From: Streptomyces sp. 846.5
GTDB taxonomy: Bacteria > Actinomycetota > Actinomycetes > Streptomycetales > Streptomycetaceae
Direction: 5' to 3'
Length of the DNA: 64,000 nt
Assembly: GCF_004365705.1 (NCBI RefSeq)
Contig: NZ_SOBN01000003.1
Coordinates: 124,001 to 188,000, forward strand
Below, in pieces: positions 49,440-52,641 of this stretch (position 1 is the first letter of the stretch; each line of letters begins with the position of its first letter). The notes below the pieces were generated by a model, which saw nothing but the letters and a program-made list of their open reading frames with translations, was not told where the DNA came from and did no database searches. Made by a program: the position numbers and the translations under genes.

Positions 49440-50549
49440 GTGCTCCTCCGTACCTTCGGGTGGTCCTTCGGGATCACCCTGATCGGCCTCGCGGCTGCCG
49501 CGTATTTCTGGGGGGCGGACGGCTTCGGCGTCGTCCTGATCCTCTCTGTCCTTGAGATCTCGCTGTCCTTCGACAATGCCGTCATCAACGCGACCATCCT
49601 CAAGCGGATGACGCCGTTCTGGCAGAAGATCTTCCTCACCGTCGGCGTGCTGATCGCCGTGTTCGGCATGCGCCTGGTCTTCCCGCTGCTGGTGGTGGCG
49701 CTGACCGCGCACATCAGCCCGGTCAGCGTGGTGCAGCTGGCACTTGACTCCACCAAGACCCAGGCCGGGCTGACCTACGCCCAGCACCTGGACGCGGCGC
49801 ATCCGGCGATCGCCGCGTTCGGCGGGATGTTCCTGCTGATGATCTTCCTGGACTTCATCCTCGGTGAGAAGGAGATCCAGTGGCTCGAGTGGCTGGAGAA
49901 GCCGCTGGAGAAGATCGGCAAGCTGGACCAGCTGTCGGTGGTCGTCTCGCTGATCGTGCTGATGCTCTCCGCCCGCTTCTTCGCCGAGGGCGGCGCGGAG
50001 ACCGTCCTGCTGGCCGGCGTCGCCGGACTCACCACCTACCTGGCCGTGGGCGGCCTGTCCAACCTCTTCGAGAGCGCAGGCGAGGACGACGAGGACGAGG
50101 AGGACGACGCGGAGGAGGCAGCCGTCGCGACCCCGCCGACCCGCAACGGCAAGCCGGCCATCCTGGTCGCCGGCAAGGCCGCGTTCTTCCTCTTCCTCTA
50201 CCTGGAGGTGCTGGACGCCTCGTTCTCCTTCGACGGCGTCGTCGGCGCGTTCGCCATCAGCCAGGACATCTTCCAGATCACCCTGGGCCTGGGCATCGGC
50301 GCCATGTACATCCGCTCCCTGACGGTCTACCTGGTCCGCCAGGGCACCCTGGACGACTACGTCTACCTGGAGCACGGCGCGCACTACGCCATCGGCGCGC
50401 TGGCCATCATCCTGATGGTCTCCATCAAGTACACGATCCCGGAGATCGTCACCGGCCTGATCGGCGTAGCCTTCATCGGCCTCGCCCTGGCCTCCTCGAT
50501 CCTCCGCAACAAGCGCCTGGCCGCCGCGGGGGACGTCCCCCCTTTGTAG
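49440..50549 (+). CDS. TerC-like membrane protein, DUF475
   Basis: A 369-residue polytopic membrane protein. Nine or so hydrophobic segments are seen, with two copies of the TerC-type acidic motif in helices: LEISLSFDNAVINATIL (about residues 38-54) and LDASFSFDGVVGAFAIS (about 258-274). The long cytoplasmic loop carries an acidic run (EDDEDEEDDAEEAA) near residue 222. Such proteins partner TerD in metal or stress homeostasis, perhaps manganese export. Start is GTG 49440; GAAAGG lies 13 bases upstream, which is long. It closes the first TerD group. Confidence 0.88.
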   Translation: MLLRTFGWSFGITLIGLAAAAYFWGADGFGVVLILSVLEISLSFDNAVINATILKRMTPFWQKIFLTVGVLIAVFGMRLVFPLLVVALTAHISPVSVVQLALDSTKTQAGLTYAQHLDAAHPAIAAFGGMFLLMIFLDFILGEKEIQWLEWLEKPLEKIGKLDQLSVVVSLIVLMLSARFFAEGGAETVLLAGVAGLTTYLAVGGLSNLFESAGEDDEDEEDDAEEAAVATPPTRNGKPAILVAGKAAFFLFLYLEVLDASFSFDGVVGAFAISQDIFQITLGLGIGAMYIRSLTVYLVRQGTLDDYVYLEHGAHYAIGALAIILMVSIKYTIPEIVTGLIGVAFIGLALASSILRNKRLAAAGDVPPL

Positions 50550-50600
50550 CCGGGGACAACCCCGTCACGAGTCCAAATCTCGTAGCCTCCGCAGATCCCC

Positions 50601-50634
50601 GAGGGCCCGCACCGTTCCGACGGAGCGGGCTCTC
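50601..50634 (+). terminator. Hairpin terminator after the DUF475 gene
   Basis: Ten-base arms (GAGGGCCCGC and GCGGGCTCTC, one G-U pair) flank a 14-base loop. It separates the Ter gene from the toxin-antitoxin remnant. Confidence 0.6.
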
Positions 50635-50675
50635 TGCGTCGCTGGAGTGCACCCTGGCGCTCCAGGTCCTTGCCT

Positions 50676-50707
50676 ATATGCTCGACTATCTATACAGTCA
50701 GCTATAT
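50676..50707 (+). promoter_or_regulatory. AT-rich inverted repeat at the toxin-antitoxin promoter
   Basis: ATATGCTCGACT (50676-50687) and AGTCAGCTATAT (50696-50707) form an imperfect inverted repeat with one bulged base, reaching the toxin ATG. This is the usual position for antitoxin autorepression. TATCTATAC between the arms could contain the -10. Confidence 0.55.
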
Positions 50708-51013
50708 GGACGATGGCTGGGAGATCGAGATCGAACCGGAAGTCCGCCACTGGCTGGACAACCTGTCCGACCGCGACTACCTCCAGGCTGAGCATGCGGC
50801 TGAACGCCTGCTCGACGCCCCGACCACCCTCTCCGAGCCGTACTCGCGACACCTTGGTGACGGGTTACGTGAACTACGGTTCACACTTGGCCATGACAGC
50901 AGTGCCATTCGTGGGTGGATCGCGCGAAGCAGGCCAGAAAGGTCTGCGAAGCCGAGCGCCACGCCGCGCATGACGAGTTCACACGCGATGTCACGAAGGG
51001 AGAAGGCTCATGA
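50706..51013 (+). pseudogene. Broken RelE/HigB-type toxin gene
   Basis: Residues 1-69 (DDGWEIEIEPEVRHWLDNLS, SEPYSRHLGDGLRELRFTLG, ending HDSSAIR) match the N-terminal half of RelE/ParE/HigB-type toxins. After about 50912 the family sequence disappears. In the next frame from 50915 the typical C-terminus resumes (VDRAKQARKVCEAERHAAHD, FTRDVTKGEGS) and ends with a TGA overlapping the antitoxin ATG. The middle strands, normally around TYWLAP and LLTVFRKT, are absent, so an internal deletion of roughly 80 bases with a frameshift has destroyed the gene. The uninterrupted first frame runs on to 51041 with unrelated sequence. It is presumably inactive as an RNase. Confidence 0.8.
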
Positions 51014-51342
51014 ACCACACCCAGTGGAAGCTTGCCCGTGACCGGAAGGCCCTCGAGGGTTACACCGAGGCGCCCGAGGTCGAAACGATGCGAACCGAGA
51101 TCCGTATGGCCTTCGATCTCGGTCAGGCGGTCTACGACCGCCGCGTCGAGCTGGGCATTTCTCAGACAGAACTGGCCAAGCGAGCCAACATGACCCAGCC
51201 TCAGGTCTCGAAGCTCGAACTCGGCGGCACTGTTCCTACGCTCCCCCTGCTGGCCCGCCTTGCCAAGGCGCTGGACGCATCGCTGAACATCGCTCTGGAT
51301 GGCGACACCTCCACGGTCGCCTTCATCGCGCATGCTGCATGA
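51010..51342 (+). CDS. XRE-family antitoxin, intact orphan
   Basis: A 110-residue HigA-like DNA-binding protein. An N-terminal part (residues 1-40) precedes a Cro/CI helix-turn-helix, ISQTELAKRANMTQPQVSKL (about 51-70), and the following ELGGTVPTLPLLARLAKAL. The ATG overlaps the ancestral stop of the toxin (ATGA), showing that the pair was once coupled. The toxin is broken, so this antitoxin is now an orphan and may survive as an autoregulator or by neutralising related toxins elsewhere. Confidence 0.85.
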   Translation: MNHTQWKLARDRKALEGYTEAPEVETMRTEIRMAFDLGQAVYDRRVELGISQTELAKRANMTQPQVSKLELGGTVPTLPLLARLAKALDASLNIALDGDTSTVAFIAHAA

Positions 51343-51459
51343 GTCCGTTGCTCGACCCGGACAAGGAGGGGAGCTTGGCCAGGTCTTCGAGTAGCTCGGG
51401 CATGGCGCCGGGGCGAGCTGTGGTGCGGGGGTCAGATGATCACCTCCTCTCCTGCCGTC

Positions 51460-52641
51460 CTACGGTCTGCGGTGGCCTGGGGTGGCGAAGCGGAGGGTGA
51501 GGATTTGTTCCAGGGCGGCGCGCGTGGCTACGGAGACTGCGCCGGTGAGTACGGCGGCGTCGCCGAGGGCGGAGACCTCGATGCGGGGTGGGTAGGGGAC
51601 CCGGGCGGCCAGTCGTTCCCGGATGCGGTCCAGCAGGAGGTCGCCGTTGAGGCCGATGCCGCCGCCCAGGACCACCAGTTCCACGTCCACCACGGCGGCG
51701 ACCGGGGCCAGGTAGCCGGTGATGCGCCTGGCCTCCTCGTCCACCACCGAGCAGGCGCCCGGGTGGCCGTCCCGGGCCAGGGCGAAGACCTGTTCGGTGG
51801 TCAGCGCGCCCCGGGCGGCCTCCTCGGGGAGCCGGGTGACGGCGTAGCGCAGCAGTGAGGCGGCGCAGGGGTCCTGGTCGTCGAAGTCCGCGGGCTCGAC
51901 CGCGCAGTCCAGTTCGCCGGCCGCGCCGGCGAACCCCCGGTGCAGTTCGCCGTGCAGGACCAGGCCCGCGCCGACGCCGGTGCCCACCGAGAGGAAGGTG
52001 AAGCTGTCGGCCGCCGTGCCGTTGCCGCGGCGCTGTTCGCCCAGCGCGGCCAGGTGGATGTCGTTCTCCACGGTGGCCGGCATGGAGAGGGCCTCCTCGA
52101 ACGCCTCCTGGACCGCGAAGCCGTCCAGGGAGGGGATGTTGGCGCCCTGCCAGATCCGCCCGTCCCGGCGGTCGACGACCCCGGGCACGCCCACGGCCGC
52201 GTGCTGCAGCGCCTCGCGGGGGATACCGGCCTCGGCGCAGAGCTCCTCGGCGAGCTCGGCGCCGGTCTGCACGATCCGCGGCGCGTCCAGGCCCTCGACC
52301 AGGACGTCGCGGCGGATCCTGATGGTGCCGTCCAGGTCGGCGACCGCGCCCCGGAGCCGCCGGGCGCCGACGTCCAGCGCCAGCACATAGGCGGCCTCGG
52401 GGCGCGGGGCGAAGAACAGCGCGCCGTAGGTGGGCCCGAGTTCGGCCCGGACCGTCTCCGACACCAGGCCCATCTCCAGGAGGTCCTGGAGCAGAGCGGA
52501 GACGGTCGGCTTGGAGATTCCGGTCCGCCTGGCGATCTCCGCACGGGAGACCGGGGCCTCGGCGCGGATCACGTCCAGGACGGTCCGAAGGTTGATCTCC
52601 TTGAGCGTGGAGGAGGTCGCGGGCCTGGCAATCATGCACAC
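51460..52641 (-). CDS. ROK-family transcriptional regulator
   Basis: A 393-residue ROK protein. The N-terminal winged helix (about residues 15-70) contains VSRAEIARRTGISKPTVSAL. The sugar-kinase-like domain follows with LALDVGARRLRGAVADLDG, VENDIHLAALGE and LSVGTGVGAGLVLHG. The usual zinc motif CxCGxxGCxE is not seen: the region reads ELDCAVEPADFDDQDPC, so the metal site is degenerate. Start is GTG 52641 or ATG 52635; neither has a ribosome site, and CACTTTAGTG at 52640-52649 is a short palindrome at the start. It probably senses a sugar. It has no kinase-operon partner here. Confidence 0.8.
   Translation of the reverse strand: MCMIARPATSSTLKEINLRTVLDVIRAEAPVSRAEIARRTGISKPTVSALLQDLLEMGLVSETVRAELGPTYGALFFAPRPEAAYVLALDVGARRLRGAVADLDGTIRIRRDVLVEGLDAPRIVQTGAELAEELCAEAGIPREALQHAAVGVPGVVDRRDGRIWQGANIPSLDGFAVQEAFEEALSMPATVENDIHLAALGEQRRGNGTAADSFTFLSVGTGVGAGLVLHGELHRGFAGAAGELDCAVEPADFDDQDPCAASLLRYAVTRLPEEAARGALTTEQVFALARDGHPGACSVVDEEARRITGYLAPVAAVVDVELVVLGGGIGLNGDLLLDRIRERLAARVPYPPRIEVSALGDAAVLTGAVSVATRAALEQILTLRFATPGHRRP

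Follow-up and report, generated by a model that had tools for sequence, protein, structure and literature searches.

Organisation of the locus

The window, a stretch of 64,000 nucleotides from the genome of Streptomyces sp. 846.5, contains a toxin-antitoxin pair in which the toxin gene is interrupted by a deletion and the downstream antitoxin gene is whole. The pair lies within an insertion between two genes that are neighbours in related genomes; coordinates are collected in Table 1.

Table 1. Features of the toxin-antitoxin locus and its surroundings, in window coordinates
Feature	Position	Strand	Evidence
Insertion of about 900 bp, flanked by a TerC-family gene (49440-50549) and, on the minus strand, a ROK-family gene (51460-52641)	50550..51457	.	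gene families; pair absent beside TerC in 13 of 13 congeners
Fragment of the tRNA-Ser(GGA) 3' end, an att-like remnant, which follows the TerC stop directly and opens the insertion on the left	50550..50594	+	85% identity to own tRNA-Ser locus
Hairpin like the one behind own tRNA-Ser gene	50601..50634	+	folding energy -26.9 kcal/mol (z -2.7); own tRNA-Ser followed by such a hairpin at the equivalent point
Proposed promoter, TTGCCT and TACAGT spaced by 17 nt, 7 nt upstream of toxin ATG	50670..50698	+	predicted from the sequence, which relatives conserve
Toxin codons 1-69 (strand 1, helices 1-2, strand 2)	50706..50912	+	profile positions 1-69, E 4e-37; Pfam Gp49 below cut-off
111-codon frame from toxin start, ending 31 nt inside the antitoxin gene	50706..51041	+	translation
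Junction of 79-bp deletion	50912..50913	+	alignment with 10 relatives
Remnant of the toxin C-terminus, in another frame, whose stop overlaps the antitoxin start in ATGA	50918..51013	+	profile positions 95-126, E 4e-12
Shine-Dalgarno-like AAGGGAG of the antitoxin	50996..51002	+	sequence; similar in aligned relatives
HigA-like HTH antitoxin, 110 aa, intact	51010..51342	+	Pfam HTH_3 6.2e-14; relatives up to 91% identical

In 8 of 13 congeners the TerC and ROK genes lie within about 200 bp of each other, and the two nearest congeners have CCTACGGTCTGCG in common with the right edge of the insertion in the window. The first 45 nt of the insertion resemble the 3' end of tRNA-Ser(GGA), and the hairpin comes next; the stretch containing this fragment is 85% identical over 87 nt to the tRNA-Ser locus of the same genome, situated on another contig (G000:C1:4391656-4391738). 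A pattern scan found no terminator with a T run at the hairpin, and an Rfam scan returned only two chance-level matches. The tRNA copy is present on the left side only and is truncated at its 5' end, the upstream half of the usual repeat being missing, and no right-hand copy was found; direct tRNA 3'-end repeats occur on both sides in Actinacidiphila loci such as L302. The structure of the window site thus does not demonstrate a plain integration there. The preliminary description of this DNA missed both the insertion and the tRNA context of the pair.

The broken toxin gene

Alignment with 10 relatives revealed one 79-column gap in the toxin gene, and the distance between the start codons of toxin and antitoxin is 304 nt in the window vs 383 nt in the intact relative L004, which sizes the deletion at 79 bp. 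Since 79 equals 26x3+1, the frame is shifted and no complete toxin reading frame remains. Translation from the toxin ATG runs past codon 69 into 42 unrelated codons before a stop inside the antitoxin gene, while the last 31 codons of the old toxin persist in another frame and end in the ATGA overlap. The frameshifting deletion near 50912 and the loss of the central strands (strands 3-4) claimed in the preliminary description are thus borne out, and its proposal that complete homologues be used for sizing the deletion proved workable; the relatives are longer and none was found to carry the deletion, which disposes of the idea that the short form is usual in the family. The claimed survival of the C-terminal code and of the ATGA junction holds for the sequence, but not for the translated toxin frame: the junction is kept as letters, but ribosomes on that frame would no longer stop at it, and the translational coupling of toxin and antitoxin is probably lost. 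A deletion reaching the toxin 3' end would hit the overlapping antitoxin gene, so that a selective reason for keeping this end is not separable. By profile positions, the same pair of break points occurs in none of the other 119 distinct loci described below, and a repeat search gave no convincing microhomology at the deletion ends.

The toxin of L004 was assigned to PF05973 (Gp49-like) with 43.9 bits against a cut-off of 23.9, as were all four intact relatives scanned (41.9-45.7 bits); the N-terminal part remaining in the window scores 22.9 bits, slightly under the cut-off. NCBIfam provided no name for the intact toxin, and matches to PDB sequences were not significant (E 0.12-0.28). An AlphaFold2 model of the L004 toxin, built from 13 aligned sequences (pLDDT 78.5), has structural matches in 6af4 (S. 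pneumoniae HigB, E 2.8e-5), 5jaa (V. cholerae HigB2) and 7nbu (M. tuberculosis HigB1). From profile and model, the intact relatives are predicted to be RelE-superfamily toxins of the Gp49/HigB kind, of which the window holds a fragment only.

Projected on the L004 model, the deletion removes residues of about 70 to 96: strand 3 (67-75) is mostly lost, strand 4 (79-87) is missing completely, and helix 3 (93-109) lacks its beginning. The residues F86, R87 and K88, invariant in the 13 aligned toxins, fall inside the deleted stretch. Judging by spacing rather than by an alignment tool, F86 and K88 would correspond to F93 and K95 of HigB-TAC, in which the exchange K95A is reported to inhibit toxicity (PMC9098466). 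The intact toxin is probably a ribosome-dependent mRNA nuclease, and the window copy is probably dead.

Promoter region and antitoxin gene

Counterparts of the TACAGT element that precedes the toxin ATG by 7 nt, of the form TAnnnT, occur at about the same distance from ATG or GTG in many relatives, as judged by eye. The 7-nt spacing of this element from the toxin ATG predicts a leaderless toxin mRNA; in another toxin-antitoxin system, 5'-RACE is reported to have shown such an mRNA for the regulator gene paaR2 (PMC8630535). A generic sigma-70 promoter scan found no promoter at the locus. The preliminary description had proposed an intact inverted-repeat operator. The promoter region is indeed intact and conserved in relatives, but its palindromic dyad is no better than chance: among dyads with 17-nt arms near the promoter, the best has 10 of 17 positions paired, 294 of 5000 single-base shuffles do as well, and the repeat search around the promoter listed only an imperfect direct repeat. 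The inverted-repeat operator is thus not supported.

The antitoxin was rightly described as still readable, since it is a full 110-aa HTH_3 protein whose frame is open and constrained. It matches HigA in the PDB (6af3_B, E 3.7e-4) and qualifies as a Cro/C1-type HTH protein, and its score against the HigA equivalog of NCBIfam is 15.4 bits, far under the cut-off of 47.7. A phage origin was dropped, as nothing in the phage collection matched the antitoxin at E 1e-5. The antitoxin is probably still made and probably binds its own promoter. Nothing in these data shows that it retains a function without the toxin.

Toxin loss across relatives

The antitoxin was searched in 394 Streptomycetaceae genomes, 86 of which gave a match at E 1e-25, in the 14 genomes of the genus and in GTDB contigs, which yielded 49 loci. 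The 141 loci analysed comprise 97 from the family search, 29 of the 49 contig loci (20 distant ones, L031-L050, being left out) and 15 of 30 genus loci (15 weak ones being left out). Removal of 21 exact repeats, mostly one genome present in two collections and in one case (L158) a second identical copy in the same genome, left 120 distinct loci. Toxins were classified with a profile from 13 intact relatives and a start-codon check.

A whole toxin with its start codon was found at 66 of the 120 distinct loci. Three more have a full toxin frame that lacks a usable start, since L002 reads ATA there and a frameshift falls at codons 3-4 in L007 and L012, and the class of one, L173, is unclear. Toxin remnants occur at 32 loci: 8 frameshifts, some of which may be sequencing errors, 6 internal losses (the window locus among them), 15 reduced to C-terminal parts or to pieces, and 3 truncated or stopped near one end. 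The remaining 18 have no recognisable toxin (17 and L056, whose match overlaps the antitoxin); they may include lone HTH genes that never had a toxin and were left out of the main ratio. Toxins are thus disrupted at 35 of the 102 distinct loci with recognisable toxin sequence, or 35 of the 101 classifiable ones. Among the 28 loci with a best antitoxin match of at least 75% identity, 12 toxins are whole, 12 are disrupted and 4 are absent.

No two loci were found with the same break, as compared by profile positions and BLAST rather than base by base. Loci with shared flanks differ in the state of the toxin: it is broken by an inversion in L088 and whole in L003, L004, L005, L082 and L085, which have a similar upstream flank; it is lost in L017 and L020 and kept in L015, L016 and L018; and it is lost in L024 and mostly kept in L012. 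At L088 (1081-1500) the central part of the toxin gene, about 146 bp, is inverted in place beside an intact antitoxin. There are no long inverted repeats at the ends of this segment, and an invertible switch was rejected in favour of a chance inversion.

A reciprocal, toxin-anchored search gave 125 matches (counted by hand), of which 79 loci were inspected (30 given, 49 fetched); two of them (L198 and L256) are one place, leaving 78, and nearly all of the other 46 matches are neighbours of antitoxins already in the first set. At 77 of the 78 places the antitoxin reading covers 70 profile positions or more. The sole exception, L226, has an intact toxin and a frameshifted antitoxin, and belongs, like L007, to a single 76%-complete assembly. 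The difference between disrupted toxins (35 of 101) and disrupted antitoxins (1 of 78; Fisher p 2e-9) supports rather than proves an asymmetry. Some of it comes from the search design, as each search favours its own anchor gene and depends on this being mostly whole, and the two sets overlap. At 16 loci (L209-L214, L216-L220, L223-L225, L227 and L243) the toxin relative is followed by two successive HTH readings, as if the antitoxin had been doubled.

Selection on the pair

Selection was estimated with an own two-ratio codon model (GY94, F3x4). For 30 antitoxins (L014, partial, L023, hybrid, and L159, frameshifted, being left out) dN/dS is 0.053 overall and 0.049 on the 9 branches with toxin remnants, where a value of 1 is rejected (-4396.75 vs -4348.42). 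On the window branch it is 0.098, not different from the rest (2dlnL 1.36) and different from 1 (2dlnL 7.3). For the toxin, codons of 26 loci were used; gapped pieces from L013 and L053 were left out, and L002, L007 and L012 were counted as whole despite their lost starts. The value is 0.096 on whole branches vs 0.104 on 8 broken branches. For the remnant on the window branch it is 0.086; a value of 1 is rejected (lnL -4486.12 vs -4479.40) and 0.3 is 2.3 log units below the best. The remnant codons thus still look constrained, which indicates a young break and, together with the absence of the deletion from relatives, supports the claim that toxin decay was caught at an early stage. As the measurable breaks are young, antitoxin dN/dS cannot tell whether the antitoxin keeps a use.

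Loci with a full antitoxin and no toxin vary. At L106 the antitoxin shows no constraint (dN/dS 1.29, 2dlnL 17.2), and L020 (0.123) and L024 (0.079) are not different from the rest, with no significant relaxation. A rule that toxin loss frees the antitoxin from selection was dropped, since the value of 0.226 for these three loci stems from L106 alone. L159 carries a toxin remnant and a frameshifted antitoxin, so that both genes are lost.

Decay of the toxin and competing explanations

The window locus is very probably a toxin-first, HigBA-like type II locus in which a 79-bp deletion has recently broken the toxin and left the antitoxin whole, a young decay inside an insertion beside a tRNA-Ser fragment. 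As read from the DNA, this is ordinary toxin-antitoxin decay, with a probably dead toxin beside a live-looking antitoxin in a mobile setting. The sequence shows the pair inserted between two genes that are neighbours in relatives, next to the tRNA-Ser 3'-end fragment. It also shows a deletion that took out the greater part of the beta3-beta4 hairpin together with the beginning of the last helix and put the remainder out of frame, leaving promoter region, antitoxin Shine-Dalgarno and antitoxin gene whole. The toxin would be lost first, since prior loss of the antitoxin would harm the cell, and the antitoxin would go later. That later step is seen elsewhere, in L159, where both genes are broken, and in L106.

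Selection of the antitoxin in its own right, whether for anti-addiction protection from related toxins that arrive with incoming DNA or for the regulation of other genes, appears rather unlikely. The antitoxins beside toxin remnants are as constrained as the rest, those of L020 and L024 would fit a kept function, and relatives of the toxin, about 40-42% identical, occur on 5 plasmid records. However, the equal constraint on remnant toxins means that the measurable breaks happened too recently for the antitoxin value to be very informative, and the unconstrained antitoxin of L106 points the other way. Within the genome itself the L004 toxin finds the window locus only, at E 1e-20; PF05973 finds nothing at E 0.001, but the same search misses the fragment in the window.

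A working short toxin, produced for instance by programmed frameshifting or serving as an antitoxin-binding corepressor, is highly improbable: the N- and C-terminal toxin codons are both conserved, and L122 and L177, despite internal losses, retain both ends within a single open frame, but these are only 2 of 6 internal-loss loci, which gives no sign of selection for a mini-protein, and break positions differ from locus to locus. Programmed frameshifting in particular was rejected, since any product would still lack 26 residues, strand 4 and F86-K88 included. A sequencing or assembly error is hardly credible either, for although poor assemblies often carry frameshifts, as the one with L226 and L007 may, a 79-bp loss is no base-calling slip and the assembly of the window is 100% complete and 0.08% contaminated, with 5 contigs and 9.03 Mb.

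For one small family, toxin loss could be counted across many species, with breaks by deletion, frameshift, start loss and inversion, and in places the order of toxin first and antitoxin later is visible in the family of the window pair. Such toxin-first decay is expected in theory and is known from single systems. A working pair should not be presumed from an intact HTH antitoxin gene, as 54 of the 120 distinct loci have no confirmed whole toxin.

tRNA-Ser(GGA) arrays in related genomes

Besides the window, the tRNA-Ser 3'-end stretch of about 41 nt was found at 12 of the 120 loci, all in the Actinacidiphila genus group; it precedes the pair, follows it at about 140 nt, or does both. In Actinacidiphila, units containing the pair are arranged in tandem and delimited by the tRNA-Ser 3' end, behind which there is often a hairpin-like stretch; genome G018 has 9 such repeats in 40 kb, and G099 has 13 in 73 kb. 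The gene before tRNA-Ser is dnaX in G018 (Pfam) and, by eye, also in G063, G066 and G000. A 35-nt core of the repeat (at most 3 mismatches) is present in 391 of the 394 genomes, with at least 5 copies in 30 (counted by hand) and up to 15 per genome; the reversed control pattern scored 0 in the rows listed. Units in the tandem arrays inspected (L302-L305, L307, L311, L312, L318, L320 and L324-L326) range from 1.6 to over 20 kb, and many small ones hold toxin-antitoxin-like pairs or WXG100-like proteins. One unit of about 3.1 kb, encoding a WXG100-like protein and an unnamed partner, is repeated (L307:12761-15150, with copies in L302, L304 and L311), the two genes possibly being a polymorphic toxin with its immunity gene.

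Units under 4 kb were surveyed in G099, G018 and G063 with crude gene calling (n=21). A toxin-antitoxin-like pair is present in 10 of them, and one further unit ends in a lone HigA-like gene. The 10 pairs include 3 HigBA-like (one with the lost start of L002), 3 Phd-like, whose partner is named by no library, 3 with a PIN-domain toxin and a small RHH-like partner, and 1 HTH-PIN, the PIN and RHH-like matches being in part weak or made by eye. At L303 (14347-14841), a lone HigA-like gene has its first codons replaced by unrelated sequence, with a tRNA repeat behind it. Of 10 genomes searched, 5 (G057, G084, G099, G117 and G134) have a tyrosine integrase at a distance of 1.5-5.2 kb from a repeat, and in the 4 of these that were checked the adjoining repeat is the tRNA-Ser gene itself; in the other 5 genomes no tyrosine integrase was listed near a repeat.

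We tentatively suggest, as a possibility still open to considerable doubt, that tRNA-Ser(GGA) behind dnaX may head an integron-like cassette array in Streptomycetaceae. Its units of 1.6-3.6 kb, bounded by the tRNA 3' end and a hairpin, would be added and moved by the tRNA-adjoining tyrosine integrase, and a distal toxin-antitoxin pair would prevent the loss of many of them; the window locus would be a former unit of the array which, once outside it and free of the hold of addiction, lost its toxin. If the arrays behave as a cassette system, they would be of wider interest than the toxin decay. No published report of a tRNA-Ser(GGA) array was found in the literature searched, which is no proof of absence.

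Comparison with known systems

In HigBA systems the toxin gene comes first. The same order, with the toxin gene upstream of the antitoxin gene and overlapping or adjacent to it, is seen in intact relatives such as L004 and in the remnants of the window. The family further resembles HigBA of M. tuberculosis (HigB-TAC/HigB1, Rv1955), V. cholerae (HigB2) and S. pneumoniae (6af3/6af4) in the RelE-like fold predicted for the toxin and in the HTH antitoxin. Unlike these, its toxin has no significant sequence match in the PDB, and the window copy is broken.

The chromosomal ccdO157 toxin-antitoxin system is reported to decay in E. coli (Mine et al. 2009, via PMC7167474 and PMC2654758), and on those accounts it is likewise a chromosomal type II locus degenerating in place across related genomes. 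That system is CcdB/CcdA, whereas the family of the window is toxin-first, HigBA-like and found in Streptomycetaceae, with disruption of 35 of 101 classifiable toxins across species.

The setting recalls the integrative and conjugative elements of actinomycetes, described as accreting at a tRNA gene, in Streptomyces at tRNA-Arg (PMC9513070). Tandem elements, direct repeats at a tRNA gene and decayed members are common to both. The arrays found here differ from that description in using tRNA-Ser(GGA), in reaching 15 core copies per genome and in consisting of many units of only 1.6-3.6 kb, with a toxin-antitoxin-like pair in 10 of the 21 units under 4 kb of three arrays.
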